Below, one piece after another: positions 1 through 50,465 of a stretch of 64,000 nt of DNA. Every line of letters begins with the position of its first letter. The stretch's first letter is position 1. Position numbers and translations under genes: made by a program. The DNA is from a virus: IMG/VR virus record IMGVR_UViG_3300030060_004277, positions 1-64,000 of that record; one strand, written 5' to 3'. A model generated the notes under the pieces. That model searched no databases, had not been told where the DNA came from, and was given only the letters and a program-made list of their open reading frames with translations.

Positions 1-1452
1 GAGTTCGGGGAACAAGGAGAGAAGATGGATGCGGATGTTCGCACATGGTGGATTGAGAACTTCGACGAGTTCGTTGACTACTGTGTGCGTGACACCACTC
101 TCCTCAGAAGATGCACGGAGAAGGTGAGTGCAATACCCTTCTTCACTACCATGCAGAAGTTCTGTGGTGTGAGATTTCAATCCACACACAACGTATCCAA
201 TTACATTCGAGGGCTGATAGGCAGGAGGACTGACCTGAAAGGCCCATCACTATTCAACAGAAAGAGGGAGGAGATGACGGCAGCGTACGTGCCCTCACCG
301 AAGCCGGGTAGATGGCCGGGAGTCGCTTGTATTGACTTCGCTGCTATGTACCCTCAGATTATCGTAGATGCCAACCTCTGTATCACTACTAAGGAGAAAA
401 GAGCAGGAGAGGGCATCAGAACAATCGAGAACAACACCCATTGGAATCAGAACAAGGTAGGAGTTCTACCCTCCCTCATCAGCGAGATGATGGAACTCAG
501 GAAGAAGTACAAGCGCAAGATGAACGAGACCGAGGATGAGGATACGAAGTTCAAGTACAACATGCTTCAATTGGCTGTCAAGGTCAACAGCAACGCTTGC
601 TATGGATACGTTTCACAGAAGGCTGTCGGTGGCGGCTGGATAGACCCAGACATCGGTGCTACAATCACTCATTACGGTAGGAGATGCATCAATATGCTAC
701 TATCGGAGAGTGAGGTGCTTGGATACAAGGCTCTTGCCGGGCATACGGACTCTGGATATGTTCAGTGTCCTTTCAATGAAGTCGATGACCTCGTAGGCAA
801 ACTGAACGACAAGATACAGACGTCTCTTGACCTACCGGGTATGAACATAGAGTTCGAGGCTTACTTCGACTATTGGACCACAGCCAATGTCAAGAACAGG
901 AACTTTGGCATCATCACTTGGCCTGAGAACAAGAAGGGCACAATGAAGGTGACAGGTTTCGCATACAAGGCGTCTAGTGTATCTCCGCTAACTAAAGAAG
1001 TCTCAGAGGTTCTCTTCAGGAAAGTAGGCACGGGAGCGGAGGAAAGAGAAGTGACAGATGCAATCAGGGATTTCTCAGTATCAGTCTTGAGTGGAGATTG
1101 GGGCATGGACAGACTTGCTCCCTATGGTAGGATAGGCAAGGAGAACTACAAGAACACACCACCGCTCTCAGTCAGAGCAGCGAGGTATTACAACGCCCAC
1201 ATGGACCCCATAGACCCCGTAAGGGTCGGGGATAGCATCAGGTGGTTGTATGTATCTAAAGTACCAGAGGATATGCCATATACAGAGGTAGCAGCATTCA
1301 GGAACCCAGTTGAGTTAGAGGGCTTCTCAGTCGATTACGGATTGATTGTTGACAAGTTCATCAAGGCCAAGATAAAGAGGGTCTACGACACTCTGGGTTG
1401 GGAGTCTCTCGATGAGGCATGTGGGGCCAAGATGCCCAAGAGTCATTGGTGA
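1..1452 (+). CDS. polB: Family B DNA polymerase, 5' partial
   Basis: This is the replicative DNA polymerase of the virus. The frame is open to base 1, so the gene begins upstream and the ATG at 25 is internal. At the visible N-end YCVRDTTLL resembles the Exo III motif (YxxxD) of the proofreading domain. The palm motifs follow: A as DFAAMYPQII (nt ~334-363), B as KVNSNACYGY (nt ~580-609) and C as GHTDSGYV with the two-residue DTD core changed to TDS (nt ~739-762). The rest, to residue 475 counted from base 25, is thumb. I see no C-terminal PCNA-binding box. It heads the visible rightward replication cluster and is followed after 4 nt by a nucleotide pyrophosphohydrolase. A second free-standing exonuclease lies at 6942-7550. 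Family assignment is firm; whether the Exo I and II motifs are intact cannot be judged here. Confidence 0.95.
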   Translation, partial: EFGEQGEKMDADVRTWWIENFDEFVDYCVRDTTLLRRCTEKVSAIPFFTTMQKFCGVRFQSTHNVSNYIRGLIGRRTDLKGPSLFNRKREEMTAAYVPSPKPGRWPGVACIDFAAMYPQIIVDANLCITTKEKRAGEGIRTIENNTHWNQNKVGVLPSLISEMMELRKKYKRKMNETEDEDTKFKYNMLQLAVKVNSNACYGYVSQKAVGGGWIDPDIGATITHYGRRCINMLLSESEVLGYKALAGHTDSGYVQCPFNEVDDLVGKLNDKIQTSLDLPGMNIEFEAYFDYWTTANVKNRNFGIITWPENKKGTMKVTGFAYKASSVSPLTKEVSEVLFRKVGTGAEEREVTDAIRDFSVSVLSGDWGMDRLAPYGRIGKENYKNTPPLSVRAARYYNAHMDPIDPVRVGDSIRWLYVSKVPEDMPYTEVAAFRNPVELEGFSVDYGLIVDKFIKAKIKRVYDTLGWESLDEACGAKMPKSHW

Positions 1453-1708: not shown

Positions 1709-1830
1709 TATCTAAGTGCAACTGCGGATGGCAGGGTCTGACTGGCACGATGATAGTGAAAGGCACACCCATGTGTCCTAATTGTCGCAAGCCATTCTCA
1801 CAGTTCAGATGCGAGGGGTGTGGAGAATGA
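1705..1830 (+). CDS. Micro zinc-ribbon protein, 41 aa
   Basis: A tiny ORF whose ATG overlaps the stop of the gene before it and whose TGA overlaps the ATG of the Cas4-like gene, so it is translationally coupled on both sides. It encodes three cysteine pairs, KCNCGW, MCPNCR and RCEGCG, enough for at least one zinc ribbon in a 41-residue protein. Comparable Cys-rich micro-proteins sit at several other places in the window. No specific function can be read; nucleic-acid or protein binding is the usual role of such ribbons. The tight two-sided coupling and dense CxxC pattern make it a credible gene. Confidence 0.75.
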   Translation: MISKCNCGWQGLTGTMIVKGTPMCPNCRKPFSQFRCEGCGE

Positions 1831-2768
1831 AGTTCAACCCCAACAAAACTGCCTTCTTCGAGAACAAGGAGTATCACGATGATGAGTTGCTCAAGTCTTA
1901 CGAAAACAGCACGTACGCTTGGGACCCATCGATGAAGGACAAGATACTCAGGGTGAGCAAGTCCTCGATGGGCACTCACGGCTTCTGCCAATACCAATAC
2001 AAATTACAATACATACATCAAATGCCCGTAGATGAAAACTACACTATGATACGTGGTACTAACGTACACGCCATAGTCGAGTATTTCTGGGACCATGTGG
2101 ATGAGGTATTGCCACAGGTTCTGGAGCACATAAGTAAAGGCAACGAGTATGCAGCACAGGAAACACTGAGAAGCGTCATACCAAAGCCACCCGAACCCTA
2201 TGCATATGGAGAGGATGCAGTCATAGAGAAGTGGCTGGAGTGGCAGTTCAAGAGACTACTATTGCTAGATGATGGAAAGAATTGGAAGCCTGTGGGTAAT
2301 GAGGTATCTTTCCACGCAAAGAAGGATGTAGATATTGGTGGAACAGTCTATCCAATACACATGAGAGGTTTCATTGATACTATCTTCTCAGATGGTGAGG
2401 GTGGCTTTGTCTTAATGGAATTGAAGACAGGTAAATGGAACTTGAAGAAAGCCGGACAGATGAGACCGGAGATGCAATTCTACAGGCTGGCCCTAGAAAT
2501 GGGACAGTTCACTAAGTTCCTACCAGTGACGCACTGGGCTTGGGAGTTCCCGAATGGACATGAGAATGGCATCAAGGACGAATGGGAAATAGAGGAAATC
2601 GGTACTAGGAAGACGAGTTATGCACCGAGGACCGTAGAGAACAAACTGAAGAAACTCGTCAAATCACATGTTGAGAACTCATTCCCGCCTGAACCACATG
2701 CGCGTAAATGCGAGTGGTGTGACTACATGGAGATGTGTCCGGCATGGAATGATAATGTGGAGGAATAG
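1827..2768 (+). CDS. cas4-like: Cas4-like PD-(D/E)XK nuclease with Fe-S cysteines
   Basis: A RecB-family nuclease of the Cas4 type, 313 aa from ATG 1827. The core has H81 (RGTNVHAIVEYF), D184 (GFIDTIF), E198 and K200 (MELKTGK) and the QFYRLAL helix of the QxxxY type. Four cysteines likely to hold an iron-sulfur cluster are C54 near the N-end and C295, C298 and C304 in CEWCDYMEMC near the C-end. Such enzymes are DNA exonucleases, often 5'-3', used in recombination and end processing. No Cas1, Cas2 or CRISPR array is nearby, so this is a replication or recombination protein rather than a CRISPR gene. The longer frame from 1782 would overlap the zinc-ribbon gene; ATG 1827 is coupled to it and preferred. 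Confidence 0.88.
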   Translation: MKFNPNKTAFFENKEYHDDELLKSYENSTYAWDPSMKDKILRVSKSSMGTHGFCQYQYKLQYIHQMPVDENYTMIRGTNVHAIVEYFWDHVDEVLPQVLEHISKGNEYAAQETLRSVIPKPPEPYAYGEDAVIEKWLEWQFKRLLLLDDGKNWKPVGNEVSFHAKKDVDIGGTVYPIHMRGFIDTIFSDGEGGFVLMELKTGKWNLKKAGQMRPEMQFYRLALEMGQFTKFLPVTHWAWEFPNGHENGIKDEWEIEEIGTRKTSYAPRTVENKLKKLVKSHVENSFPPEPHARKCEWCDYMEMCPAWNDNVEE

Positions 2769-2770
2769 AA

Positions 2771-3070
2771 ATGAACGAAAACTTAGAAGTAATGAAAATC
2801 CTACTAGAGGATTACATAGATAGCGCAACAGAAGAAATGATAGACGTAAGGGTGATACCCGGCAACTTAGGTGTGAGCAAAGCATTCAGAGCCACTCTAA
2901 GTAGACAGATGACCTTAGATGACTATATGGAGAAGAATGAGAAGAGCATTCCCTCTTTCCTAGTCTACGAGGTATTTGTCAATCCCCGCTTCTTTATGAA
3001 GTGGACACCCAGAAAGATGGCAATGGAAATTCGTCAGGACTTCATTAAGCAGATGCAACAAGAGGGATAG
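2771..3070 (+). CDS. Uncharacterised 99-aa replication-cluster protein
   Basis: I do not recognise this protein. It is soluble, predicted mixed alpha/beta with an acidic N-terminal third, has no cysteine pairs, membrane segment or nucleotide-binding motif, and ends in a basic helix (KWTPRKMAMEIRQDFIKQM). It starts 2 nt after the Cas4-like gene and ends 1 nt before the primase, so it belongs to the same transcript. A role as accessory factor to one of these neighbours is a guess from position. Confidence 0.75.
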   Translation: MNENLEVMKILLEDYIDSATEEMIDVRVIPGNLGVSKAFRATLSRQMTLDDYMEKNEKSIPSFLVYEVFVNPRFFMKWTPRKMAMEIRQDFIKQMQQEG

Positions 3071-3071
3071 G

Positions 3072-4184
3072 ATGCCCTTTATTGAACTGGACTTCCCTAG
3101 GGAGGTTCTTGAAATAGGCCACAATGGTAGGAATGGTGGAAGGTATCTGGTAAGGAACTGGGATGAACTAGAGAGATACTGGAAGGGGAAGAACGGCAGA
3201 GGTAATGCGTATTTCACCGCCTATGGATATAGAAGGACCAATCCACCAAAGCATCATAGGGTCGAATACAACAGTGCGATTGTCAGACACTTCGTTATGG
3301 ATTTCGATTGCAAGGATTTCAAGAATCGTGGGCAGAAGGTTGACTTTGGTTTCATGCAAGAGCAAGTGAGGAGACTCCACAAGCACTTTCTCGATAATGA
3401 CTTCAGGCACTTCGTCTGGTTCAGTGGTGGTGGCTACCATATCTACGTACCGATATCAGATACACTCACACCTACGGACGGACTAGAGGTCACTAGGATA
3501 AAGCAGGGTGGGAGAAACCTACTCAGGAAATGGCATAAGAAGTTGGACCTGTCCTGCAATGACCCTACAGTGGCTTTTGACCTAGCCGGTATGATACGCA
3601 TACCCAACTCATACAACATGAGAAGAGGGTGTTGGACCATTCCGCTCAATAGCCATGAGATACTAAACTTGTCTCATGAGGAGTTGATAGAACTAGCACA
3701 GGACCCTAGAGAGGGATACATAGGGATAGGAAGGAAGGATATTGATTTGATACTTCCTGAGAAGCGAGAGTCAAGGTTCAAATCAAGAAGAGGTGAAATG
3801 AAAGACCTTCCAAGTATATCACTTAATAACATCAAGGTTCTACCTTGTCTTGCGCAGGCTGCTCTAGGTGAGGGAAACCCGATACATCGAGCGAGGTTTC
3901 ATCTGGCATCCTATCTGGCTGACAGGCTGAGATGGTTCTTCCCACCAGAGAGCGTGCCTATCAAGAAGAAGGAAGAGCACGTCAAGCAGATAGTGGATAT
4001 ACTAAGCAAGCAGGGTTGGGTGGATTGGGATAGAGACATCACTACTACGCAGGTCTCTAGCATAGTGATGGGAAGCAACGGCCACAGTGGATATAAACAT
4101 GCTAATTGTCTGACGCTCATGCAGGAGGGACTTTGCGTGGGTAAGTGCGAGTTCTATGACGGAACCGCAGAGGTGGTCGCTTGA
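3072..4184 (+). CDS. Archaeo-eukaryotic primase fused to PriL-like Fe-S domain
   Basis: A 370-aa primase. The N-terminal AEP catalytic domain shows the metal-binding DFD (D77, D79, VMDFDCKDF), the SGGGYH motif (S118-H123) and the downstream IRIPNSYN segment near residues 176-183. The C-terminal part from about residue 255 resembles the Fe-S domain of archaeal PriL: LPCLAQA with C259, a helical IHRARFHLASYL stretch, then C346, C355 and C359 in NCLTLMQEGLCVGKC, giving four cysteines with PriL-type spacing. So one chain seems to combine the two subunits that cells encode as PriS and PriL. It makes primers for the PolB upstream. An RBS-like GAGGG precedes ATG 3072. The AEP call is firm; the PriL resemblance is by motif reading. 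Confidence 0.92.
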   Translation: MPFIELDFPREVLEIGHNGRNGGRYLVRNWDELERYWKGKNGRGNAYFTAYGYRRTNPPKHHRVEYNSAIVRHFVMDFDCKDFKNRGQKVDFGFMQEQVRRLHKHFLDNDFRHFVWFSGGGYHIYVPISDTLTPTDGLEVTRIKQGGRNLLRKWHKKLDLSCNDPTVAFDLAGMIRIPNSYNMRRGCWTIPLNSHEILNLSHEELIELAQDPREGYIGIGRKDIDLILPEKRESRFKSRRGEMKDLPSISLNNIKVLPCLAQAALGEGNPIHRARFHLASYLADRLRWFFPPESVPIKKKEEHVKQIVDILSKQGWVDWDRDITTTQVSSIVMGSNGHSGYKHANCLTLMQEGLCVGKCEFYDGTAEVVA

Positions 4185-4483
4185 ACAGATGTGTCAAGTG
4201 CAACGCGAAACTAGGGTCTAGGAATGGAAATAAGAACAAAAGGAGTTTCACTAAACTATGTGTCAAATGTTACAAGAACCCAAGTCATCAGAATAGATGC
4301 ACGTATACCAAGAAAGACGGAAGCAGGTGCAAATTGAGAAAGAGTCACAAATCAGACAAGTACTGCGGCATACACATAAAGATGGATAGTAAAAGCAAGA
4401 GAATGCGTGAACTCCTCAACTCCCATAACAAGGTATACCACATAGGCGAAATTGTAAGACGGGAGCGTGAACGTAATGGCTGA
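4181..4483 (+). CDS. Cys/His-rich zinc-binding protein, TTG start
   Basis: A 100-aa basic protein starting at TTG 4181, which overlaps the primase stop (TTGA). The N-terminal half is CVKCNAKLG followed by KLCVKCYKN, a zinc ribbon. The second half has RCTYTKKDGSRCKL and YCGIHIK, resembling the C-x(n)-Tk-G-x-x-C...yC-x-x-H zinc motif seen in small viral and plant proteins (DUF5763-like). The C-terminal helix is highly basic. Nucleic-acid binding is likely. Its end overlaps the start of the XPF-like nuclease by 8 nt, so the two are co-translated. Confidence 0.75.
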   Translation: MNRCVKCNAKLGSRNGNKNKRSFTKLCVKCYKNPSHQNRCTYTKKDGSRCKLRKSHKSDKYCGIHIKMDSKSKRMRELLNSHNKVYHIGEIVRRERERNG

Positions 4484-5177
4484 TTTAGTAATAGATAGCA
4501 ATGAGAGAGGGGCTCTACATGACTCTGTGATTAGGAAGGCAGAGAGACAGGGACTACGTGTGGAGAAGAAGGTCTTGGTCGTAGGTGACTACCTCTTGGG
4601 CAATGCATGTGTCGAGGCTAAGTCAATCAACGACTTGTTCCAATCAAGCCACAGCGGTCACCTCTGGAGACAACTCGATAACATGGATGCCAACTATGAG
4701 CGATTCTTCCTACTCATACATGGTGGTATTGACAAGTACATAGCCATGAGTAAGAAGAATGGGAAGGCACTCACATACACAAGGGTGCAGAACGAACTCA
4801 TAGGTACGATAGCGAGGATAATGTCTGACTTCGATTGTCAGGTCTTCTTCACACCCAATCTGAGCGAGGCAGCGTTGTTCATAGTCAAACTGCACAACAA
4901 ATTGCACAAACCAGCATCTGCACACGGAGCGAGAGCAATCAGGAGAGTGAGCACTAATGATGTTAGGAAGGACATGCTACTCACCATACCCGGTATCGGA
5001 GCACAGATGGCTGACAGATTACTCACAGAGTGCGGGTCAATAGAGGAGATGTGCTTTCCCGAGTCCCTCAAGACAGTGAAGGGTTTAGGTGCCAAGACAA
5101 GAGAGAAGGTAATCCAAGTCTTGACCAGCGAAGAGCAGGTTCATATCGAGGCAAACAGGCTAAAACGTATAGATTAA
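4476..5177 (+). CDS. XPF/ERCC4-type structure-specific nuclease with HhH tail
   Basis: A 233-aa nuclease of the XPF/Mus81/Hef family, which cuts flap, fork or branched DNA. The ERCC4 domain shows an early acidic motif IDSNERG (D7, E10), GDY (G37-Y39) and VEAKSINDL (E47, K49, D53), where the family usually has ERKxxxD, so arginine is replaced by alanine. The C-terminal third (TIPGIGAQMADRL and TVKGLGAKTREKV) is a tandem helix-hairpin-helix DNA-binding domain. I chose ATG 4476, which has GGGAG 10 nt upstream; GTG 4467 is too close to it. In the replication cluster it could resolve replication or recombination intermediates. It is the last gene before the promoter at ~5200. Confidence 0.9.
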   Translation: MADLVIDSNERGALHDSVIRKAERQGLRVEKKVLVVGDYLLGNACVEAKSINDLFQSSHSGHLWRQLDNMDANYERFFLLIHGGIDKYIAMSKKNGKALTYTRVQNELIGTIARIMSDFDCQVFFTPNLSEAALFIVKLHNKLHKPASAHGARAIRRVSTNDVRKDMLLTIPGIGAQMADRLLTECGSIEEMCFPESLKTVKGLGAKTREKVIQVLTSEEQVHIEANRLKRID

Positions 5178-5192
5178 AGATTGGAATAATAG

Positions 5193-5207
5193 GAATTATA
5201 ATATAGT
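5193..5207 (+). promoter_or_regulatory. Archaeal TATA-like promoter for the ATPase gene
   Basis: The 51-nt gap after the XPF-like gene is the longest in the rightward cluster and is AT-rich. The element AATTATAATATA is centred near 5200, about 29 nt before ATG 5229. That is the spacing expected for an archaeal TATA box driving a leaderless or near-leaderless mRNA. No Shine-Dalgarno sequence is visible before ATG 5229. Assignment by pattern and spacing only. Confidence 0.5.
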
Positions 5208-5230
5208 GACCAGTAATCAGGTCACTATAT
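5201..5230. promoter_or_regulatory. Perfect inverted repeat over the start of the ATPase gene
   Basis: ATATAGTGACC at 5201-5211 is the exact reverse complement of GGTCACTATAT at 5220-5230, leaving an 8-nt centre. The right arm runs into the ATG at 5229, and the left arm overlaps the end of the TATA-like element. It could be an operator that a dimeric repressor binds across the transcription start, or an RNA hairpin that hides the start codon. No other copy was noticed in the window. Confidence 0.6.
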
Positions 5231-6620
5231 GAAGAGAGTAGAGCAATACGCGATAGTGAAGAAGAACCAGATATTCAGGGGATACCTAGAGCACTTTGGT
5301 AATACATCGATAGACAATGACATACCCGGTATGTTGTCCTTTTTCTTTATTCAAGGGCAACTTGCGGTGCCTTACATCAGGATACCTTGGGGTGCCTCTC
5401 ACTTAGACCCGAGAGTACACGCCTTCTGGATTCAATCGAGCAGGACTGGTAAGTCAATCGCTTGGGAGTTCATCGGTGACATATTGAAGGATATCGACAT
5501 CCCGACTGACATCTACACAACAGGCACTGATGCAGGTCTGATAGGTGGGTTCGAGGAGTTCAAAGACGGTGATGGCAATATAGAGACCGTTGAGAAGGAA
5601 GGATTCCTCAACGGGCGTAAGGCACTGAACTTCGACGAAGGTTCAATCATCCTCAATCCGAACAAGCACAGTCAAGAGACTGTCCTGTATCTACAATCAG
5701 CCTGCAACCCCGTTGGTAGCAACAACAACATACTCGTCAAGCACACTAAGGCAGGTAGGATAGAGACCGAATCGCTGGTGTCACTGTGGATTACCACTTA
5801 CCCACCATCGGGTGTCAAGGAGTACGTTCTCACTAAGGGTATATTCCAGAGAGTACTGCTATACTGGTCTAACTGGAGTATGGATAGGAGAATGAACGTC
5901 AGCATGAGAAGGGCGGATTCAGCATTCAAAAAGATTCCAAAGACAAATATCAGTTATGAAGACATAACAACCTACTTCAGAGACCTTGAGAAGAGACTGA
6001 GGAACAAGGTCCTCGAAGTCACAGAGACGAAATTCGTCGAGTGGGACAACATGTCGAGGAAAGAGCAGGAAGAACTGCTTCAGGAGTCAATGACTGACGT
6101 CTTAAGCGCCGATGATTCATTCTACCCTGCTATGTACACAGCCATAGAGGACTACTACGCCTTGCTCACTGGTCTAGGACCGGGTATAGGTGACGTCGTT
6201 GCTTCATTCATACCAGCGATGGAGAACTACACAGTGATTCTCTCAACACACATAGCGTTGATGGAAGACACATGGGTTGTCAACGACGAACATGTGGACA
6301 TGGCCAAGGAGATTCTGTATGATTTGTTCAACAACCTCATAGAGTGGTTGGAGGGCGAAGTTGAGATAGGTGCTAAGATAGCGGAGAAGGCTAACCAGAA
6401 GGCTAGGTGGCTCGCTGCTCATGATGCCTCTAACCCATTTGACTTGGGTGGTAGAGGTGACAACTGGAGAAAGCGCTCAGATATCATGGCTGCATACATG
6501 AACCAGAATCAAGTCACAAGGGGCACAGCATACAATCACTTCAACAAGTGGGCTACAAAGATGTTTGACCAAGGAAAGGATGGCAAAATCGTATTCCTAA
6601 GATTAAGAGATGACGCATAA
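5229..6620 (+). CDS. P-loop ATPase, DUF3987/helicase-like
   Basis: A 463-aa ATPase probably acting as a replicative or primase-associated helicase. Walker A is WIQSSRTGKS (Q69-S76; the first position is Q rather than G or A) and Walker B is ALNFDEGS (D136, E137). The later pattern, a polar strand followed by YVLTKGIFQRVLLYW, resembles the sensor/arginine-finger region of DUF3987-type phage ATPases. The C-terminal ~60 residues look like a winged-helix domain (RSDIMAAYM...YNHFNKWATKMF). It starts inside the inverted repeat at 5201-5230 and stops in a TAATG overlap with the next gene. The cluster has no other helicase in view, which supports that role, but family placement is tentative. Confidence 0.75.
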   Translation: MKRVEQYAIVKKNQIFRGYLEHFGNTSIDNDIPGMLSFFFIQGQLAVPYIRIPWGASHLDPRVHAFWIQSSRTGKSIAWEFIGDILKDIDIPTDIYTTGTDAGLIGGFEEFKDGDGNIETVEKEGFLNGRKALNFDEGSIILNPNKHSQETVLYLQSACNPVGSNNNILVKHTKAGRIETESLVSLWITTYPPSGVKEYVLTKGIFQRVLLYWSNWSMDRRMNVSMRRADSAFKKIPKTNISYEDITTYFRDLEKRLRNKVLEVTETKFVEWDNMSRKEQEELLQESMTDVLSADDSFYPAMYTAIEDYYALLTGLGPGIGDVVASFIPAMENYTVILSTHIALMEDTWVVNDEHVDMAKEILYDLFNNLIEWLEGEVEIGAKIAEKANQKARWLAAHDASNPFDLGGRGDNWRKRSDIMAAYMNQNQVTRGTAYNHFNKWATKMFDQGKDGKIVFLRLRDDA

Positions 6621-6817
6621 TGAAATTCCCTGAAAGTGAAGAAGAAGAGGACAGTGATTTATTCAGCACTTGCTCCGTTTGCGGAACTGACACTGACTTT
6701 GAAGGAAGAGGCGGAATTGCTGGATATTGGGGTATCATGCCGGTGGCCTTTTGCGAGTGGTGCCTCTCGTCGATGATGGATATGGCGAGCCAGTTGCTGG
6801 GAGTTGACGAAGAATGA
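6620..6817 (+). CDS. Acidic zinc-finger protein, 65 aa
   Basis: A small acidic protein whose ATG overlaps the ATPase stop (TAATG). It carries CSVCGTDTDF and FCEWCL, a four-cysteine zinc knuckle, between a Glu/Asp-rich N-end and an amphipathic C-terminal helix. No family was recognised. Its stop overlaps the start of a 43-codon micro-gene (ATGA). The acidic ends suggest protein rather than DNA contact, but this is inference. Confidence 0.7.
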   Translation: MKFPESEEEEDSDLFSTCSVCGTDTDFEGRGGIAGYWGIMPVAFCEWCLSSMMDMASQLLGVDEE

Positions 6818-6951
6818 CTGATGATGTGGACCCACGAATAGCACTCTTTTGGATACAAGGATGCCGAACAGGAAATTCATGTGAGTATCCCACACTCGAT
6901 GTGAAACAATGGCAGAAGCAAATGGGGATTGGTGAAGAGGAATGACTGATG
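6812..6951 (+). repeat. 12-bp direct repeats flanking a micro-gene
   Basis: GAATGACTGATG occurs at 6812-6823 and again at 6940-6951. Each copy contains the ATGA stop/start overlap and the first codons of the following gene. The unit between equivalent positions is 128 bp and holds exactly one 43-codon ORF. Loss or duplication between the repeats would remove or copy that ORF and still leave the upstream stop coupled to the downstream start. Confidence 0.7.
6814..6945 (+). CDS. Micro-protein of 43 aa resembling the ATPase Walker A segment
   Basis: This ORF is coupled at both ends by ATGA overlaps. The segment DPRIALFWIQGCRTGNS (residues 6-22) matches DPRVHAFWIQSSRTGKS (residues 60-76) of the ATPase at 5229-6620 in 12 of 17 positions, but the Walker A lysine is asparagine. 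Two cysteines are present (C17, C23) and the C-end is acidic. It may derive from a partial copy of the ATPase gene, or the likeness may be chance. Its position in the overlapping chain supports translation. Function unknown. Confidence 0.55.
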   Translation: MTDDVDPRIALFWIQGCRTGNSCEYPTLDVKQWQKQMGIGEEE

Positions 6952-7550
6952 TGATGGCATTGGATATAGAGACTAGCAACTACTCATGGGAGATTGGTGG
7001 ATGGGAGAACAAGGCTCTCTTCGACCCTACGGTGGTAGCGACATGGGACGGTGATAATGCGACTGTATTCTCCAAGCAGGAGATAGACATAGATGGAGTG
7101 GAGGTGCTGCCACTACATCCTAGAATACTGGGTGACCACATCACCGATTTCGTAGAGAAGGGAGGTAAGATACTTGGGCACAATATCCTAGGTTTTGACT
7201 TCCCTGTCCTAAGAGAGTCCCTCGATTGCTGGGCTGTGGGAGACGTCATGCAGAAAACTGAGACCGTCTTTGACACGAAGACCATGTTTCAGAAAGCCTC
7301 GCTACCATACGGTGTGTTAGAGATGTCATTGAACACTCTATCCAAACACAATCTCAATCAAAGCAAGTTGATGGAAAGCATAGAAGCACCAGAGGCTTGG
7401 GCACAAGGTAGGTTTGAAGACGTAATCAAATATTGCGTAAGCGATGCACAGTTGACCTACGACCTCTACGTACATGGTAGAGACAATGGCATCATCAAGT
7501 CACGCTCCTTGGAAACCGGGGAGATAGTAGAAGTAGAAGTAGAGTGGTAA
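6942..7550 (+). CDS. DEDD-type 3'-5' exonuclease, stand-alone
   Basis: A 202-aa RNase H-like exonuclease. Exo I is ALDIETSN (D8, E10), Exo II is HNILGFDFPVL with the N...FD pattern, and Exo III is YCVSDAQLTYDLY, a YxxxD motif that places it in the DEDDy group like the PolB proofreading domain. There is no polymerase domain. The start overlaps the preceding micro-gene (ATGA) and the thermosome begins 1 nt after the stop. It may supply proofreading in trans, process ends, or degrade host DNA or RNA. The fold is well supported; the substrate is not. Confidence 0.85.
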   Translation: MTDVMALDIETSNYSWEIGGWENKALFDPTVVATWDGDNATVFSKQEIDIDGVEVLPLHPRILGDHITDFVEKGGKILGHNILGFDFPVLRESLDCWAVGDVMQKTETVFDTKTMFQKASLPYGVLEMSLNTLSKHNLNQSKLMESIEAPEAWAQGRFEDVIKYCVSDAQLTYDLYVHGRDNGIIKSRSLETGEIVEVEVEW

Positions 7551-7551
7551 T

Positions 7552-9045
7552 ATGACAGAGAACGAAAACGAAAACGCATTGAGAACGAACATAAACGCGG
7601 TGAAGACGATAGTCCACACTGTAAAGAGCACCCTTGGCCCTAACGGTAGAGACAAGATGATGGTAGACAGTGGTGGCAACGCCATAGTGACCAACGACGG
7701 TGCAACGATATTGAGGGAATTGGACGTAGCCCATCCGGGTGCTAAGATGATAATAGAGTGCGCTCACACACAGGAGAGTCTGTGTTACGATGGTACCACA
7801 TCCACAGTGGTGCTGGCAGGTCAGTTGTTGACCAATAGTGAGAACCTGATGAATCGCGGGCTTCACCCCAATCTAGTCTGCAAAGGATACAATGAGGCTG
7901 CGCATATGGCAACAGACTACCTCAGAGATTCACTATCCAAAGATGCCTCGGATGAAACCTTGACGTCTGTAGCAAAGACAGCGATTACGGGTAAGACATT
8001 AGACTCTGCAACTGAGACAGTGTCCCAACTTTGTGTGGAGGCAGTTAAGAAGGCAGGGGATGCAGAGAAAGTAAGAGTCCTCAGTCTACCGGGCGGCTCG
8101 CTCAGAGACTCTTATTTGTTCAACGGCGCCATAGTCAACAAGGACTATGTCATAGAACATGAGGTGGACATGGAGTGTGACATGTTGTTGGTCAACATGG
8201 GACTAGAGCCAGAGAAGACAGAGCAGAATGTGCAAGTTCAATTAGACATGAAGGGATACAACGCTTTCAAATCCTCTGATAGGGAGAACATGTTGGAGCA
8301 AGCAAAGAATCTCACTAAGCACTTACCCAAGGGTGGTGTGGTGTTTGTTAGAGATGGTGCTTCTGACCATGTCTGTGCTTATCTCAAGAAGCATAACATC
8401 GCAGTCGTAAGAAGACTGCCAGAAAGCACTATGAAGGCCCTATCATCCACATTAGGGCTACCCATAGCACAGATGCCCTCAGATGTAGAGTGTGCTGCAA
8501 AAGGTAAGATACACAAACAGAGACACTACGATGTGGACTACATATTCGTAGAGGGCATGGTCGACTCTGACCAATCTACACTCGTGCTACGTGGCGCGAC
8601 AACAACAACCTTGGATGAGATAGAGCGAGGCTTTGACGATGCCCTAGGGGTTGTCTCTCTTGTGATGAATGGTGACGGTGTCGTTGCTGGTGGTGGCAGC
8701 ACCTATGCTTCAATGGCCTCGTACCTACGCTCACAAGCAGCAACCGTAGAGGGAAGAGCACAAATGGCGATAGAAGCGTTTGCTGAGGCCTTGGAGATTA
8801 TTCCTGCTACCATAGCGGAGAACGGTGGCCAAGACCCATTGGATTGTATATTGAGCCTGAGACACGCAATTCAAGACGGTTCATTGGACATGGGTCCGGA
8901 TTTAGAAAACGAAGGCATAGTATCGATGAATAAATTAGGTGTCGTAGAGCCATGCTCGCTTGTCAGACAGGCAGTATTGAGCGCGACCGAGGTCACCACT
9001 GCTATTCTCAAGATTGATGATGTAATAGCAAAGAGAGGAGCATGA
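7552..9045 (+). CDS. Group II chaperonin (thermosome subunit)
   Basis: A virus-encoded thermosome subunit of 497 aa, about 40-50 residues shorter than typical cellular subunits. ATP-binding signatures of the equatorial domain are present: TLGPNGRDKM (28-36), NDGATIL (48-54), DGTTST (D80-T85), later GDGVVAGGGSTYASM, and the C-terminal TTAILKIDDVIA. The glutamate of the usual GGGAxE region is replaced. No GGM tail. Cellular thermosomes form double rings that fold proteins with ATP. A viral subunit could build its own ring or join host rings to fold large virion proteins. It sits 1 nt after the exonuclease and overlaps the next gene. Confidence 0.95.
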   Translation: MTENENENALRTNINAVKTIVHTVKSTLGPNGRDKMMVDSGGNAIVTNDGATILRELDVAHPGAKMIIECAHTQESLCYDGTTSTVVLAGQLLTNSENLMNRGLHPNLVCKGYNEAAHMATDYLRDSLSKDASDETLTSVAKTAITGKTLDSATETVSQLCVEAVKKAGDAEKVRVLSLPGGSLRDSYLFNGAIVNKDYVIEHEVDMECDMLLVNMGLEPEKTEQNVQVQLDMKGYNAFKSSDRENMLEQAKNLTKHLPKGGVVFVRDGASDHVCAYLKKHNIAVVRRLPESTMKALSSTLGLPIAQMPSDVECAAKGKIHKQRHYDVDYIFVEGMVDSDQSTLVLRGATTTTLDEIERGFDDALGVVSLVMNGDGVVAGGGSTYASMASYLRSQAATVEGRAQMAIEAFAEALEIIPATIAENGGQDPLDCILSLRHAIQDGSLDMGPDLENEGIVSMNKLGVVEPCSLVRQAVLSATEVTTAILKIDDVIAKRGA

Positions 9046-9266
9046 TGGGGCGATTGATGAAACGGTTAGAAGTTAAGTGCAGAAAATGCGGTCACGAGCA
9101 TGTACCACATCGTCTGACAGCGAGATACCACAGCGGTGACGTTAGTAAAATAAAGAATAGAATACAATTGTGGCAGTGCAAGAAGTGCGGCCATTTCTGG
9201 CAGGATTCGGTCTTCAAGAAAAAGAGAAACTTGCTGCTTAGAATGGTCAGCAGAGAAGAAAGTTGA
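9042..9266 (+). CDS. Zinc-ribbon protein, 74 aa
   Basis: A basic protein with a classical four-cysteine zinc ribbon, KCRKCGHEHVPHR followed by QCKKCGHFWQ, and a basic C-terminal tail. It overlaps the thermosome stop by 4 nt, with GGAG just upstream of ATG 9042. Such ribbons often bind nucleic acid or polymerase. No specific family was recognised; a viral transcription factor is possible but not shown. Confidence 0.75.
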   Translation: MMGRLMKRLEVKCRKCGHEHVPHRLTARYHSGDVSKIKNRIQLWQCKKCGHFWQDSVFKKKRNLLLRMVSREES

Positions 9267-9275
9267 ATAACCAAC

Positions 9276-9294
9276 CGGTGTGCTTTCTACACCG
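9276..9294 (+). other. Short hairpin before a small gene
   Basis: CGGTGT (9276-9281) and ACACCG (9289-9294) can pair around the 7-nt loop GCTTTCT. It lies in the 27-nt gap after the zinc-ribbon gene, and its right arm reaches the GTG proposed as the next start. It might be a weak terminator or a translational hairpin. It is short enough to be chance. Confidence 0.3.
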
Positions 9295-9587
9295 TGGTGC
9301 TGTTCCGATGGCTTGCTCGCAAGTTGATGTCTATCATGGGTCACTTGTATGTGTGGTTAGATAGACGTGTTGAATACACAGATGAAGAGGTTTCAGAGGT
9401 TCTCGGATTAAAGATAGACTCTGATTTACAAACATCCTCTAGGTACGAATTGTGTCGTCTCATCGAAGCCGAGTTCAAAGTTCCAAAGGACTCTTTCTGG
9501 CGCTTACACAGCACACAGAAAATACGTTTTGCAGCACAACAGATGCGTGAGATGAAGAAGCCCAGCAAGTTCGAAATGGGGTATTGA
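9294..9587 (+). CDS. Uncharacterised 97-aa basic protein
   Basis: An ORF starting at GTG 9294 or at an internal ATG at 9327 or 9336. The N-terminal segment LFRWLARKLMSIMGHLYVWL is hydrophobic and basic and may be a membrane-surface helix. The rest (TDEEVSEVLGLKIDSD and following) is helical and charged, without cysteine pairs. No family was recognised. It lies in the same transcript as the zinc ribbon before it and the micro-genes after it. Confidence 0.55.
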   Translation: MVLFRWLARKLMSIMGHLYVWLDRRVEYTDEEVSEVLGLKIDSDLQTSSRYELCRLIEAEFKVPKDSFWRLHSTQKIRFAAQQMREMKKPSKFEMGY

Positions 9588-9588
9588 T

Positions 9589-9657
9589 ATGGATAGAAAA
9601 TGTAGAATGTTTATGCGTTGCATGGATGATATATTTGCGGAGTGGTCAATCGAATGA
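9589..9657 (+). CDS. Possible 22-aa micro-ORF
   Basis: ATG 9589 follows the previous stop by 1 nt, and its own TGA overlaps the ATG of the membrane micro-protein (ATGA). It encodes a short Met- and Cys-rich peptide with a CRMFMRC core. It may be a real micro-protein or only a coupling leader for the next gene. Support is the junction pattern alone. Confidence 0.3.
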   Translation: MDRKCRMFMRCMDDIFAEWSIE

Positions 9658-9788
9658 TTGGAGAATTAATTCTTGCTTCACTCATCATACCAATCTTTCT
9701 TTTCATAATGCAGTTGAGAAGAGAATATTACTGGCTGCAAAGCATTGGGGGAATTAATGGTATTTTTGAGGCCGATGACTATGAGTGA
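9654..9788 (+). CDS. Small single-pass membrane protein, 44 aa
   Basis: The N-terminal half (LILASLIIPIFLFIM) is a clear transmembrane helix, followed by LRREYYWL with positive charge at the membrane edge and an acidic tail. With basic residues after the helix, the C-end would be cytosolic. It is coupled to its neighbour by ATGA, and the next ORF begins inside its end. Small late-positioned membrane proteins in viruses are often holin-like or membrane-remodelling factors, but nothing here proves this. Confidence 0.55.
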   Translation: MIGELILASLIIPIFLFIMQLRREYYWLQSIGGINGIFEADDYE

Positions 9789-9864
9789 AGACGACAATAG
9801 CATAGGAACTGAGTTCGGTCCTATCACCAATTGGTTGATGAGAAAAATAGGAATACTGATATGA
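9775..9864 (+). CDS. Possible 29-aa micro-ORF at the end of the rightward module
   Basis: ATG 9775 or ATG 9781 overlaps the end of the membrane protein and runs to TGA at 9862-9864. The product ends in a short hydrophobic, basic helix (NWLMRKIGILI) that could bind a membrane. Its stop abuts, with no base between, the stop of the leftward gene on the other strand. Weakly supported. Confidence 0.35.
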   Translation: MTMSEDDNSIGTEFGPITNWLMRKIGILI

Positions 9865-10437
9865 TTACCATTCCCATCCACTAATCTCAGTAACCATGCT
9901 ACCGTATTTGTTCTCTATCATTGTCTTGTAGTCCTGATTGCTCACCACGTTGCCATCATCATCCATATCCACTGTGAGCCATGTGTCGAACCAACCCACA
10001 TCCCAACTGCTTCCTGTTGGTGGTACCCATGTGTGTATATCGGCGTGCACGATTGTGAACCTGTCGTCCTTGGCACAATCGTCCCAGACCAAGTCTATCA
10101 CATCCTGTTCCCTCTCGACAACCGTAACGCTGGTCACGTCGTCTGAACCGAGCAAGGGAATGTGAATCATACCGATACCGAGCCCTGCGATGAGTATGTC
10201 ACCGGACATACGGGTCATCAACCAGTCATGCTCACCGTACTCCTGCTCGGTGTCCTGCATTATGTTGAGCCAAGAGGCACCATACCTCCTGTATAGCACG
10301 GTGTAGTCTCCCTCTGCTATGTTGCGGTAGTTAACGTAGTTCAACCAAGACGGCTCCCCAGTGGTGGTAGTGCACTGCTCGACCTTGTAGTTCCCACTCT
10401 CACCATCGGGTATTCCCGTCACTTCCCATCTACTCAT
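9865..10437 (-). CDS. SAM-methyltransferase / spermidine synthase-fold protein
   Basis: A 190-aa protein with class I methyltransferase features: motif I DILIAGLGIGM, acidic end of strand 2 VTVVEREQDVIDLV, motif II FTIVHADIHTW and WDVGWFDTW. The arrangement is closer to spermidine-synthase-like members than to DNA methyltransferases, and no DPPY or PC motif is present. ATG 10437 is preferred over GTG 10440; it overlaps the stop of the upstream gene and has AGGTGA before it. It is the last gene of the virion module, directly behind the fibre genes, so it might modify a fibre, glycan or host component. Substrate unknown. Confidence 0.6.
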   Translation of the reverse strand: MSRWEVTGIPDGESGNYKVEQCTTTTGEPSWLNYVNYRNIAEGDYTVLYRRYGASWLNIMQDTEQEYGEHDWLMTRMSGDILIAGLGIGMIHIPLLGSDDVTSVTVVEREQDVIDLVWDDCAKDDRFTIVHADIHTWVPPTGSSWDVGWFDTWLTVDMDDDGNVVSNQDYKTMIENKYGSMVTEISGWEW

Positions 10438-11000
10438 CACGTCACCTCTATATTTATGCTTAAACCGGATGCGTCAGTGCTTCCACCACTATTACTAGCA
10501 CTACAACCAACATTGAATAAAAAATCATCACCGGCAACCATGAGTTGGTATCCCCTACCACCTGAATTATGTTGGAAATGCGCCGCGTGACCCGCACTCC
10601 CACTTGTTTCGTCTTGGTCAGTAGAGGCTGTACCTACAATGTTCGAACTTGATATCGCACCGCCAGAATCGTTCACACTAGGAAGTGCTAGTCCCCATTG
10701 AAAATTCGTGGCACCAGTAGCGCGTATGAACCCCTGCACTCCGAATATAATGACTCCACTAAAGTTGGTTAGAGCATCCAAGTAAAGGGAATTGTAACCA
10801 AACGCTATGTTTACGCTGTTGGAACTGAAGGTGCTACCGTCATTGGAGGCAAGAGTGTTGGACAACTCATTGGCTTGAAAGACTATCACAGCGTTGTCGT
10901 AGTTGCCCGCTGATGAAGTGGCTATGCTGACTCCCGTCGGTGCGCTGCCACCTGCTTGTCCCTGTTGTGCGATTGTTCCTAATACGGCTGGCATTGGCAT
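10437..11000 (-). CDS. Probable fibre-tip or tail-associated protein, 187 aa
   Basis: A Ser/Gly/Asn-rich protein predicted to be beta-structured, with few charged residues and patterns typical of virion appendage proteins (VNIAFGYNSLYLDAL, GHAAHFQHNSGG). No catalytic motif. It begins 4 nt after the 1202-aa fibre gene ends, and its stop overlaps the methyltransferase start. It may be a receptor-binding tip or a fibre chaperone. ATG 11000 or the in-frame ATG two codons later could be used. Confidence 0.6.
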   Translation of the reverse strand: MPMPAVLGTIAQQGQAGGSAPTGVSIATSSAGNYDNAVIVFQANELSNTLASNDGSTFSSNSVNIAFGYNSLYLDALTNFSGVIIFGVQGFIRATGATNFQWGLALPSVNDSGGAISSSNIVGTASTDQDETSGSAGHAAHFQHNSGGRGYQLMVAGDDFLFNVGCSASNSGGSTDASGLSINIEVT

Positions 11001-11004
11001 GGTA

Positions 11005-14000
11005 TCATCCTAGCATTATGTACGCTGAAGAGGAAGTCGCAATGAACGTCTTCGCCTCATAACGAGTGGTTATGGTGGCATTTGAGGATGCACCGTTGAT
11101 TGTGTTGCCGTTTCTTGCGATAGTCACAGTTCCTGTTGTGTCGCTGATGATTACATACTGCTCTCCTCTGTTGGGGTCGGCAGGTAATGTGAAGGTAAGT
11201 GCGCTAGTGGCTATCAGGTACAGACCAGCGTAGTCGTCGTAGTCCAGTGCTTGGTTACCGGAGAATGTACGTACTTGCCCTGCCTTTGCCGCGACACCCG
11301 CAGCGGGAGTGTCACCGTGAGCGAGATTGTTGGAGCCAACTGCTAGTAGCCTTCTCTGACTGTCCTTGACTAGGATGGAGAAGTACATCTCACCGTCAGC
11401 GTTTCCGCTGGTTTGGTCAGGCACTAGCACTCCTATCCTAGCGTAGTCCCTGAAATCGTGTATCGCTGTCTCGCTACCTACCTCTAGCATACTTGAGTCT
11501 GACCCCATGAACTTAATCAACCCAATATTGTCATCGTCAGCGACTGTGGCATCCGTAGTGTTCCTTAGCAGAGAGATGACTGGTGCAGCAGCATCAGTAG
11601 TGTCATCATTGGTGAATACGAAGTGTCCTAGTCCCTTCGCCTTGAATGACATCCCAACGTCTGTTTGGTCTCCTGTTGCCTCGAATCCGGGGCCAGTCAT
11701 GCGACCTGCTCCGGCGGTGTTGTATGAGTTGTGGACTACATCTGTACCGAATAGAGTGCCAGCAGTCGTATCTGAGATACCATTCCATATCTTGATGTAC
11801 GAGTTTGCACTTGTTGTCTTACCGAACAGGAGTTGTTCATTACTAGAATCGTCATAGATACCATGACCGTCATCAATCAAGATGTTCTGACTGTTAGTAT
11901 CCAAGTTGCCACCGAGTTGTGGAGATGTGTCATCCACCAAGTCAGACATACCGCTACTACCACCACTAGCAACAAGGTCAATTGTTCCATCACCATCCTC
12001 ATAGGTAACAGTAATGTTAGTCTCAGTGTTACTAGAGAACATAGCCCCAACTATATCCTGAATCGCTTCCGTTGTTGGAATATCACTTATGTATGCAACA
12101 GTAGAGGCAGTACCCCAATCTGTATCCGCTTGGTCTGCACGATAATGATAGATTCTTTGTGTGCTAGTCTTGGAGAAAGCCAATAGGTTAGCATCACCAC
12201 CTGAGCCACCGTTGTATGTTTCTAATACCAAAGCATCAACATAGTCAGAGCCAGCAGTTGACCCGTCTTCCAAACCTGTCTTTGATGAGAATAATCCGAA
12301 GACTTGTCTTTTGCTTGAATCTAAATCCTCAGGAGCAAAATCCCTGTCATCTTGACTGTATAGGTATGGAGCATGTGCTGTTCTGAAATCGACATCAAAT
12401 GGGTCTCCATCTGAACCACTATCTATATCAGTCCAATCAATAGTCATACTACCATCATGGCTTAGGAATTTAATCTCTTCAGCGTCTGATATGGATACCT
12501 CAGTCCCATCATCATCCTCTAGAATGAATGTCATTTGAGAAGTGATGTATCCGTATCCAAGAATCTTATCTTCGACAGCAGCAGAAGTCATAATATGTGC
12601 ATCATCATTAGTAAATTCCCCTGAATCATCAATACCTGTTATTGTGTTGCCGTCTAAGACCAATCCTGTTAGAGTTACACTACCAGTTACGTCTAATGCT
12701 GTAGAAGGACTCGTATTGCCTATTCCGACATTGCCCTCTGAGTCAATACGCATCCTCTCGTTGGATGCAGTGTCATCATCGTCGTTTATGGCGGAAGTGA
12801 AGAATATCAAGTCTCCACCCTTGTCTCCTGTGCTGTGGTCTTCAGCAGCATAGGCGGCAATACCAGCAGATGCTTCTGTTGCCTGTGAAGGAGAATTACC
12901 ATCCTTTGAATCAAAACCAATGGCACCGAGTAAATCGCCGTCAGAGATAGTGGTGTTTCTATTTATTATAGTCATTCCATCATTGAAATCTCCCGCCTGA
13001 TGATACACTGTGAAAGAGGTTGATGGGTGTGCGCCGTAGTTATTGACGGCTAACTTACCATCTATGAATGTCATACCAATGCTGCTTGTTGTATCATCAT
13101 CTTGGTTTGTTGGTGAAAACATGAATTCTAAGTATCCTCCTTTATCACCTGTGCCGTGGTCTTCCCTCGCTTTAGCAACAATAGCAGCAGACGCCTCAAG
13201 CACGCTGCTTGGTACATTGCCATCAGTCGAATCGAAACCGATGCCACCGAGAAGGTCATTGCTGGCCGTTGATGAGTCGGCTCTGACAACCATTATCCCG
13301 TCGTCACCATCAGCACCAGTGTGGTCAACCTGTAGTTTATTCAACGGACTCGTAGTGCCTATTCCGACATTGCCACCATCAGTCAATATTGACAAACGCG
13401 CTATTGAAGTGTCATCATAATTTTCAGAATCTCCATAACTTGAAATCTGATTGCTATTTCCTGCTGTTAGTTCTAATCTCCCTCTCCCGAAATTATCGGT
13501 AGCAACATATCTAAGACCTGCTCCTACCCTACTTCCATCACCACCTGTGCTATCTTCTGCGTTGAAGAATAACAGAGAGCCTATCTTATCATCAGCAGCA
13601 TGAGCCGCATCCGTATTGCGTATAAATATCGAAGGAGTGCTACTACTAGCGACATCTAGATTATGGGCAGGACTCGTAGTGCCTATTCCTACATCACCAT
13701 CAGAAGCAATTGTCATTCTTGCTGTTCCGGCGGTGGTGAATGTTTGAGTGTCTGTACCAAATGTAATCTTGTTGTTGGTATCTCCTGAGTGAATCAAATC
13801 ACTAGCGATTGTGACTGTTGAAAATGTCACATCGTCTGAAGTACCAACTGCTTGGCCAATTGATATTGTTGAAGAGTAATTTCCAGTTGTAGTGCCAGTC
13901 TCAGAGCCTATTGTTACCCCTGTCCCACCTGTTAGGTCCACACCGGTTATGTCTCCACCACCAGCAGCACCTACTTGAGAAGCGACGTATGCCTTGATTG

Positions 14001-49328: not shown

Positions 49329-50465
49329 TCACTTTAGGTCACGAATACTCCCTTGTGCTCCGAAGAAGGTGGTCCATATTTCTCCCATCGTTCTGTAGAG
49401 TCCTTCCTGACCTAGCCTGTTGATGGCGAACGGGTCGCCAGTCTCGATTCCCGACTCGAAATACTGGGTCGGTATCGCAGTGCTGAAGTAGAGGTAGTCT
49501 GTGTCTAGGTAGTAAATCTTGGATAGGTTTCCATCGTCATCCATGTCCTTGGTTGGGATGATTGGCACACCGTTGTAGGTCGCTACGATGAATCCGGCTT
49601 CCATACCGGGTACACCCTTCACGCCGTTGTAGGTTGGTGTGACTCTCTTCTCTTCCATGAACCTCTGCTGGGACTGTAGCAGTTGCTGTAGTCTCATCAG
49701 AGTGTCGTATCCAGTTAGCATGACCTTGGGGTTTCCACCGCGCTCCCAGATTTGCTGGAACAAAGTGTCCAGTTGGTCTAGGGACAGTGTCCTGTCGTTT
49801 CCGCTTGAGTCACAGTTGACTTCTGCATCAGACCAAGTGTTAGCGCTTCTGTCGATGCTGTATATGTCCAAGTCTGCTGCTGTGTTCACGTGGACTGATG
49901 TGTTCATTGCTGCATCGCTTGCAGTAACTCGGTCCAATGACTCGAAGTTGTTTCCTGCTACTGTGTCAGCGTCAGTCAAGAGCATCTTGTTGACCATCTC
50001 TGCGTGGTGCTTACCCATCTCTTCCTTTAGGACTGCTCGGATGTCTCCCAATCCGTCGTCCCTGTCTGCTAGGAAGATAGCCGTCTCAGACATATCGAAC
50101 GTGTGTGCGATTGTCTTTGGCTTTGCAGCGATGTGCTGGAAGGTAGGCTTCACAGTGTCTGGTAGGATTGCATTCTCTGCAACACCACCGTGGACAACCC
50201 CTGCATTTGGCTTGTCAGTGATAACTCTCCAACCGCTCCTGTCCCAAGGTCTCTTGGGTAGGATGCTGAATGCGTTGAACTCTTGGTTCAATTGTGACCA
50301 GACCTTTCGTCCGTAGATTGCTTGGTAGGTACCAGCAGTCGTGGACAGCATAGGACTGTCAGCCTTCAATAGTTCGCTACCAGTGTATGAGTAGCCCATT
50401 GCGTTCCCGGCGCCATAGTAATAGCGCTCCATGTCAGTTATTGTGCGTACGTAATCTCTTGCCAT
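49329..50465 (-). CDS. Major capsid protein, HK97 fold
   Basis: A 378-aa protein directly downstream of the prohead protease, with strong GAGGTGA 8 nt before the ATG, as expected for a highly made protein. Typical HK97-type elements by reading: an N-arm with helices, E-loop-like strands (GWRVITDKPNAGVVHGG), a spine helix (KEEMGKHHAEMVNKMLL), an A-domain region (QIWERGGNPKVMLTGYDTLM) and a conserved late segment (YNGVPIIPTKDMDDDGNL). No separate mature N-end is visible. Forms the icosahedral head. Confidence 0.85.
   Translation of the reverse strand: MARDYVRTITDMERYYYGAGNAMGYSYTGSELLKADSPMLSTTAGTYQAIYGRKVWSQLNQEFNAFSILPKRPWDRSGWRVITDKPNAGVVHGGVAENAILPDTVKPTFQHIAAKPKTIAHTFDMSETAIFLADRDDGLGDIRAVLKEEMGKHHAEMVNKMLLTDADTVAGNNFESLDRVTASDAAMNTSVHVNTAADLDIYSIDRSANTWSDAEVNCDSSGNDRTLSLDQLDTLFQQIWERGGNPKVMLTGYDTLMRLQQLLQSQQRFMEEKRVTPTYNGVKGVPGMEAGFIVATYNGVPIIPTKDMDDDGNLSKIYYLDTDYLYFSTAIPTQYFESGIETGDPFAINRLGQEGLYRTMGEIWTTFFGAQGSIRDLK

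Follow-up and report, generated by a model that had tools for sequence, protein, structure and literature searches.

Why should a virus carry a group II chaperonin of its own, and which proteins would that chaperonin serve? The question is raised by a complete open reading frame (ORF) of 497 amino acids with an ATG start, located at positions 7552–9045 on the plus strand of a 64,000-nucleotide stretch of DNA (the window), which comprises bases 1–64000 of a 91,599-base IMG/VR record. The protein matched Pfam Cpn60_TCP1 (PF00118) with an E-value of 6.8e-123 and 411.4 bits against a cut-off of 34.3, over profile positions 3–488 of 490, and is the only PF00118 match in the whole record. The frame has 500 codons from stop to stop, so the N-terminus could be extended by about three residues at most. 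Its best solved relative is the Thermoplasma acidophilum thermosome alpha subunit (E 3.9e-88), and the 60 PDB sequences among the matches listed are all archaeal group II chaperonins or CCT. NCBIfam scores lie nearer to the thermosome (394–415 bits) and CCT (231–290 bits) models than to GroEL (at most 108.9 bits), which places the protein in group II. The curated NCBIfam thermosome cut-offs were missed (alpha, 414.7 against 450; TIGR02339, 400.9 against 671.1; beta, 394.4 against 400), and the protein is thermosome-like but outside the thermosome subunit proper as NCBIfam defines it.

An AF2 model built from a 40-row alignment (mean pLDDT 84.5) had its best PDB match in 3rus_A, the Methanococcus maripaludis chaperonin Mm-cpn (Z 44.5, rmsd 4.0 over 485 residues, 35% identity). 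The built-in lid of group II chaperonins, a helical protrusion, is present as helix 233–257 of the model and in the alignment to lidded structures, its detail being weak, especially at the start of the lid helix, since mean pLDDT is 51–59 at residues 221–240. Taken together, the full-length profile match, the intact ORF and the fold bear out the initial annotation of a complete virus-encoded group II chaperonin. Ten matches at E ≤ 0.001 came from a Foldseek search of BFVD; 'Thermosome (Fragment) [uncultured virus]' ranked first at 38% identity, and most of the others were named GroEL or HSP60. In a phage collection, 27 records matched the chaperonin, none covering more than 80% of the query, and those with annotation were GroEL/cpn60; blastn of window positions 5000–12900 against this collection gave no match, and a first scan of genome contigs with the single window protein as query returned no relative.

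Comparisons were made with 81 viral loci from IMG/VR searches, one of which was capped at the best 80 of 487 relatives, and with a sample of cellular proteins drawn from the best 80 of 574 relatives. Counting identical proteins once reduced 80 viral loci to 60 distinct proteins, or 61 with the window protein; the partial protein of locus L008 was excluded from trees. Apart from the latter, the viral proteins among the matches listed are 495–510 residues long and approximately 60–99% identical to the query.

The residues that power group II chaperonins are conserved throughout this set. Mm-cpn D60, D91, G92, T93, T94, K161 and D386 are all matched in 61 of 61 viral proteins among the matches listed, including the catalytic Asp49 (Mm-cpn D60), which lies within a stem loop modeled with strands at residues 35–38 and 44–47; the other sites are given in Table 1. 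The available text of PMC5635000 gives roles to the corresponding residues in a group III chaperonin: two aspartates activate water and a basic residue acts as sensor. More broadly, 90 of the 124 columns that are at least 95% conserved in cellular proteins are kept by both the viral majority and the window protein, and 34 differ. The earlier reading that most ATP-binding motifs are kept stands, as does its remark that the GGGAxE region has altered letters (GGGSTY in the window protein). A disabling effect of this change does not follow, since the E site also varies in cells: it is Y in 45 and F in 16 of the 61 viral proteins among the matches listed, and E in 52, L in 18, A in 8 and M in 2 of 82 cellular proteins (two not listed). 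We reject a disabled ATPase on this ground and on the conservation of the catalytic residues in all 61 proteins.

Matches to a terminase, portal, head protease, major head protein and tape measure identify the 91.6-kb record as a tailed virus. The major capsid protein (MCP) is 33–35% identical over 99% of its length to those of the HVTV-1 and HCTV records. In an MCP-led sample of 23 records from the best 80 of 539 MCP relatives, seven had a chaperonin, in open frames of 502–519 amino acids. None of the five records on the haloarchaeal side (MCP 66–100% identical to HVTV-1), four of which are 102–104 kb long, carried one. Among the 18 records on the non-haloarchaeal side, all four longer than 80 kb (G053, G066, G067, G068) had the gene, as did 3 of the 14 shorter ones, the 11 without it being incomplete at 41–71 kb. 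ERCC4 occurred in 7 of 23 records, in six at 57–72% identity. The record combines a family B polymerase, opposed replication and structural clusters, tailed-virus capsid genes and kinship to Druskaviridae with a length of 91,599 bases. These are the traits that ICTV profiles give for Magrovirales-type viruses of Poseidoniales, with genomes of 90–110 kb (PMC10768690, PMC12999244), and the record, a candidate for this group, fits the descriptions of Aoguangviridae/Apasviridae as viruses of Poseidoniales in those sources. The host is presumably a member of the Poseidoniales (Marine Group II, MGII), archaea that are probably marine, judging from the relatives named in the comparison.

Table 1. Positions in the window of the replication block, the major capsid protein gene and the chaperonin features discussed in the text.
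Feature	Positions	Strand	Evidence or remark
Family B DNA polymerase, C-terminal part	25..1452	+	Pfam 3.7e-26; PHROG_262 1.2e-42
PD-(D/E)XK nuclease	1782..2768	+	Pfam 4.9e-22
Primase-like ORF	3072..4184	+	PHROG primase family 1.2e-6; NCBIfam PriL/PriS weak, far under cut-off
ERCC4 (XPF-type) nuclease with helix-hairpin-helix	4467..5177	+	Pfam ERCC4 1.2e-18
463-aa ORF, conserved in block	5229..6620	+	74 of 81 loci
3'-5' exonuclease-like ORF, 202 aa, directly upstream of chaperonin	6942..7550	+	Pfam DNA_pol_A_exo1 E 0.0012, under cut-off
Stem loop, residues 35–50	7654..7701	+	Neighbor contact and nucleotide sensing, role as in the available text of PMC5635000
Phosphate-binding motif Y-D-G-T-T, residues 79–83	7786..7800	+	D80, G81, T82 and T83 invariant among the 61 viral proteins
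Lys148 (Mm-cpn K161, nucleotide-sensing loop)	7993..7995	+	61 of 61 viral proteins among matches listed
Apical (client-binding, lid) domain, residues ~198–344	8143..8583	+	Strongly diverged
Catalytic Asp363 (Mm-cpn D386)	8638..8640	+	61 of 61 viral proteins among matches listed
Ala419, aligned with Mm-cpn R442 and the Arg of GroEL PLRQI	8806..8808	+	Ala in 61 of 61 viral proteins among matches listed
Zinc-ribbon ORF, 74 aa	9042..9266	+	Start overlaps chaperonin stop (ATGA)
Major capsid protein	49329..50465	-	PHROG_24667 1.5e-60; nearest haloarchaeal Druskaviridae

The chaperonin had been described as coded between replication genes. It is in fact second-last in a plus-strand run of eight genes, in the order family B polymerase, PD-(D/E)XK nuclease, primase-like ORF, ERCC4 nuclease, 463-residue ORF, exonuclease-like ORF, chaperonin and zinc ribbon, so that replication genes precede it and what follows is the zinc-ribbon ORF, a 97-residue ORF and then convergent structural genes on the minus strand. 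This order is kept in all 46 loci, among the matches listed, that have all eight genes, which indicates that the chaperonin gene travels with the replication genes; the arrangement suggests that it may also be expressed together with them. The exonuclease-like ORF was found at 76 of 81 loci and lies within 150 nt upstream of the chaperonin in 47 of 74. The zinc-ribbon ORF is present at 80 of 81 viral loci, and in 71 of 80 cases it is no more than 150 nt downstream of the chaperonin. The 463-residue ORF had no family match over cut-off in Pfam or NCBIfam, and all Pfam matches of the zinc-ribbon ORF were under cut-off. Its cysteines C13, C16, C46 and C49 are at least 90% conserved in 81 rows, and it could possibly be a chaperonin partner or a transcription factor.

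On the minus strand, a single 5633-residue ORF (22636–39537) takes up more than a quarter of the window, and pieces related to it lie near the chaperonin in 23 of the 81 viral loci. Also on this strand are a 1202-residue ORF (11005–14613) with repeated VGIGTTSP-type motifs, which we take to be associated with tail-fiber proteins, and a 191-residue ORF (9865–10440) whose glycine-rich stretch resembles spermidine-synthase-like folds by eye; neither had a Pfam match. Auxiliary gene content includes an HMGL-like lyase (Pfam 1.2e-17) at record bases ~76189–77040 (L009, 12189–13040, minus strand), a type of gene that the Aoguangviridae profile lists too. At L010, a SNF2-type helicase gene (2026–4365) overlaps a gene for an ArdC-like anti-restriction metallopeptidase (4334–5362), both on the plus strand.

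A tree was built from 143 rows, 82 of them cellular and 61 viral, the window protein being among the latter. A branch with SH-aLRT support of 100 separates the viral rows from the cellular ones, and the stems on either side of the midpoint root are 2.43 and 1.39 changes per column long. The gene is under strong constraint, with dN/dS of 0.009–0.020 between the window gene and four close relatives and 0.092 for a more distant pair (L092–L094), dS being high or saturated in several pairs. When nine adjacent genes are measured against the same three relatives, dN/dS is lowest for the chaperonin (0.009–0.018, against 0.024–0.098 for its eight neighbors, some neighbor pairs of which gave no dS through saturation).

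The best cellular matches, among the best 80 of 574, are Poseidoniales thermosomes at 38–41% identity, other archaea being barely lower at 36–39%. Seven Poseidoniales-clade genomes each have three or four PF00118 matches; six of the seven have a single canonical thermosome plus one copy each of two divergent paralogs, also of group II, which we call P2 and P3 (rows L172–L178 and L179–L184, respectively), and the seventh has the canonical gene, a short P2 and a third PF00118 match. All six P3 proteins have Val in place of the first Thr in GDGTT, and their sensor Lys is variable (K in three, R in two, T in one), which may mean an altered ATPase. Besides these group II genes, G007 encodes a GroEL, as does another genome of the same phylum. 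For comparison we used 21 rows, among L011–L035, that were grouped as MGII canonical from their titles and their place in the 143-row tree.

In a tree without the host paralogs P2 and P3, a branch with support 94.9 sets the viral and MGII canonical proteins apart from the rest. When P2 is included, freely found trees join the viral clade to P2 with SH-aLRT of 84 and 96.7, an association that carries a long-branch warning, and the tree held to a viral plus MGII canonical grouping scored 5.73 lnL above the freely found one with a p-AU of 0.751, so that the trees lean but leave the choice between P2 and the canonical gene undecided. Residue 79 is aromatic only in viral and MGII canonical rows of the 186 compared: Y in 61 of 61 viral proteins and Y in 14 and F in 7 of the 21 MGII canonical proteins. 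The 91 other archaeal rows have G (88) or A (3) at this site, P2 has R in five, G in one and Q in one, and P3 has G in 6 of 6. Rare residues held in common with the viral proteins, at the same thresholds, number nine for MGII canonical, six for P2 and seven for P3; these counts are not one-sided, so this signature also leans without deciding. The identity of the viral proteins to P2 is approximately 32%. The viral gene is likely an old capture of the canonical Poseidoniales thermosome, a reading that rests mainly on residue 79 and two of the tree results.

Departures from the cellular pattern are shared across the viral clade. The N-terminal segment of P-I-F-I-L-K-E-G-T type is absent from the window protein and from 80 locus proteins with complete starts, and the C-terminal tail is likewise absent, the viral proteins stopping within about 10 residues of the I-D-D motif; the window protein thus has neither the P-I-x-I-L-x-E-G-type segment nor the longer C-terminal tail of thermosome subunits and is indeed shorter, as first described. 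The first element of its model is a helix that starts at residue 3, in a stretch of low confidence (residues 1–10, mean pLDDT 60). In the group III structure, as presented in the available part of PMC5635000, the N-terminal strand enters a four-stranded sheet between neighbors only when the ring is closed, and the open ring is held by the stem loop and C-terminal strand. Both of the latter sequences are retained in the viral proteins.

Two otherwise conserved equatorial sites in the inter-ring region have also changed. Mm-cpn R442, whose place is taken by Ala419, is R in 21 of 21 MGII canonical proteins and R in 69 and K in 16 of 91 other archaeal rows. It aligns without gaps to the Arg of GroEL PLRQI in two alignment modes, one of the two GroELs aligned itself lacking this Arg; the residue is presumably the inter-ring R452 in E. 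coli GroEL numbering. R452E is one of the four changes in the single-ring mutant SR1, according to the available text of PMC12696368. The site of Mm-cpn E426, which residue offsets to the group III paper would place near the ring–ring interface, is A in 52, S in 4, P in 3 and G in 2 viral proteins, against E in 21 of 21 MGII and 90 of 91 other rows. Several points caution against over-reading these changes: the viral proteins retain the matching Asp (D428) and a hydrophobic residue at 430, close to the 'ball' of group III; the stacking register of group II rings is different; and the group III 'ball' mutant L439A still made double rings. Loss of ring-contact residues, which had been proposed at the outset as a refuting observation, was therefore found in part: the N-terminal segment is gone and the E426 and R442 sites differ in 61 of 61 proteins, but the sequences of the stem loop and of the C-terminal strand persist. 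The N-terminal loss and the Ala at the R442 site could weaken assembly.

Divergence is concentrated in the apical domain. Viral and MGII canonical proteins are 51.7% identical in the equatorial, 41.7% in the intermediate and 22.2% in the apical domain, within domain limits taken from Mm-cpn; alignment doubt may inflate the apical divergence. The ratio of apical to equatorial identity is 0.43 for this comparison and 0.92 between MGII and other archaea. Apical change is raised in the host paralogs as well, but less (P2 to MGII 0.61, P3 to MGII 0.64, within P2 0.68, within P3 0.65).

We consider it rather probable that the gene encodes a working, virus-specialized group II chaperonin captured from the thermosome of a Poseidoniales host. 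An ancestor of this tailed-virus lineage would have acquired the main thermosome gene of its host and retained the ATP-driven equatorial and intermediate domains, the stem-loop and C-terminal-strand contact between ring neighbors, and the built-in lid, with which no GroES would be needed, while the N-terminal segment and C-terminal tail would have been lost and the apical, client-gripping domain rebuilt. Group II chaperonins form double rings of 8–9 subunits that ATP drives closed; the viral ring may be double or single. Self-assembly is the most likely main mode for the viral subunits, whose ring would bind virus proteins made during replication, shut in response to ATP and let them go once folded. 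The main rival to this explanation is that the viral subunit instead enters host thermosome rings and steers them to viral proteins. The hosts appear to have several subunits to mix with, canonical, P2 and P3 in six of the seven genomes, and the motor and ring domain has stayed closer to that of the host than the apical domain (51.7% against 22.2% identity); the N-terminal strand that would complete a mixed sheet is, however, absent in all viral proteins seen, and for self-association the contact of stem loop with C-terminal strand might be enough, leaving such a swap unlikely in our view.

Folding of virion proteins, whether the capsid protein or the 5633-residue giant, is an improbable function for the gene. 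Host GroEL and gp31 fold the capsid protein of phage T4. Beyond this precedent, some viruses need chaperonins for particle assembly, as stated in the available text of PMC5332604, and large structural ORFs lie nearby. The chaperonin gene nevertheless belongs to the replication block, which is coded on the opposite strand and keeps its order in 46 of 46 loci. The initial suggestion of a giant tail protein as client is unsupported, though not disproved, given that the 5633-residue product far exceeds the chaperonin chamber, that its gene belongs to the opposite-strand cluster and that the chaperonin gene travels with the replication genes. A decoy that poisons host folding in a dominant-negative manner would suit the N-terminal loss and the inter-ring-region sites changed in 61 of 61 proteins, but an inhibitor hardly needs a full ATPase, and since all 61 proteins retain every catalytic residue tested and dN/dS is the lowest of nine genes, we hold this role to be very unlikely. 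Homology to a host gene would also be expected of a decaying or accidental acquisition, the probability of which is close to nil against a long-stemmed clade of 61 proteins, conserved synteny and dN/dS of about 0.01–0.02 in close relatives. A recent host gene with disabling changes, envisaged when the gene was first annotated, is contradicted by the same tree and dN/dS values together with the kept catalytic residues, and we reject a recent host gene and a pseudogene alike.

Genes of this kind were already known, from reports by Nishimura et al. (2017) and RaFAH and from the viral thermosome fragment in BFVD. The available text of Nishimura et al. (2017; PMC5332604) reports that 38 of 58 genomes of marine group II viruses encode chaperonins, with thermosomes in 18 of 18 clade 1 genomes and GroEL in 20 of clades 2–4, and the RaFAH study (PMC8276007), as far as its text is available, describes thermosomes in predicted archaeal viruses. 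Clade 1, to which the window virus presumably belongs, resembles it in being archaeal tailed viruses with a group II chaperonin and a family B polymerase, and its chaperonins were grouped with those of MGII; unlike for our set, the available portion of that paper describes no N-terminal loss, apical divergence, inter-ring-region changes or zinc-ribbon companion. A literature search found no study of the particular features of the window protein beyond the works cited here, and in the main text of a magrovirus paper (PMC10160649) the terms chaperon-, thermosome and GroEL are absent. The Aoguangviridae (PMC10768690) have the same presumed host group, a chaperonin of their own, a replisome, an HMG-CoA-lyase gene and opposed clusters, but their chaperonin is a group I GroEL/GroES, whereas that of the window virus is group II; a search for GroEL-bearing magroviruses with the GroELs of L216 and L215 as queries returned one weak locus. 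Phages phiEL, OBP (PMC5934643) and AR9 also carry their own chaperonins, some of them single-ring, but infect bacteria, and those of phiEL and OBP are GroEL orthologues according to the available text of that source. Among cellular proteins, the Poseidoniales canonical thermosome shares the aromatic residue 79 and gives the best matches, but has the PIFILKEGT segment, the C-terminal tail and an apical domain only 22% identical, and Mm-cpn and the T. acidophilum thermosome share the fold, ATPase residues and built-in lid at 38% identity, whereas the viral protein is without their terminal segments and without R442 and E426.

What is new is therefore the detail and not the kind, the features shared across the clade of viral chaperonins being apparently undescribed. 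The domain-wise divergence shows which part the virus rewrote and turns an oddity into testable claims, and Poseidoniales-clade hosts are shown to carry several group II paralogs. It is a doubtful but conceivable extension that viral thermosomes are a distinct functional class, with the motor of the host, a replaced client domain, a re-engineered ring–ring interface, single or loosely coupled homo-rings and a zinc-ribbon partner; if true, these viruses would have single or loosely coupled rings devoted to replication proteins, with the zinc ribbon co-translated. The available text of PMC12696368 calls a reconstructed ancestor the first reported single-ring group II structure. The uniform terminal loss and the two inter-ring-region changes make the viral proteins a test case for a group II chaperonin with a weakened or single ring.
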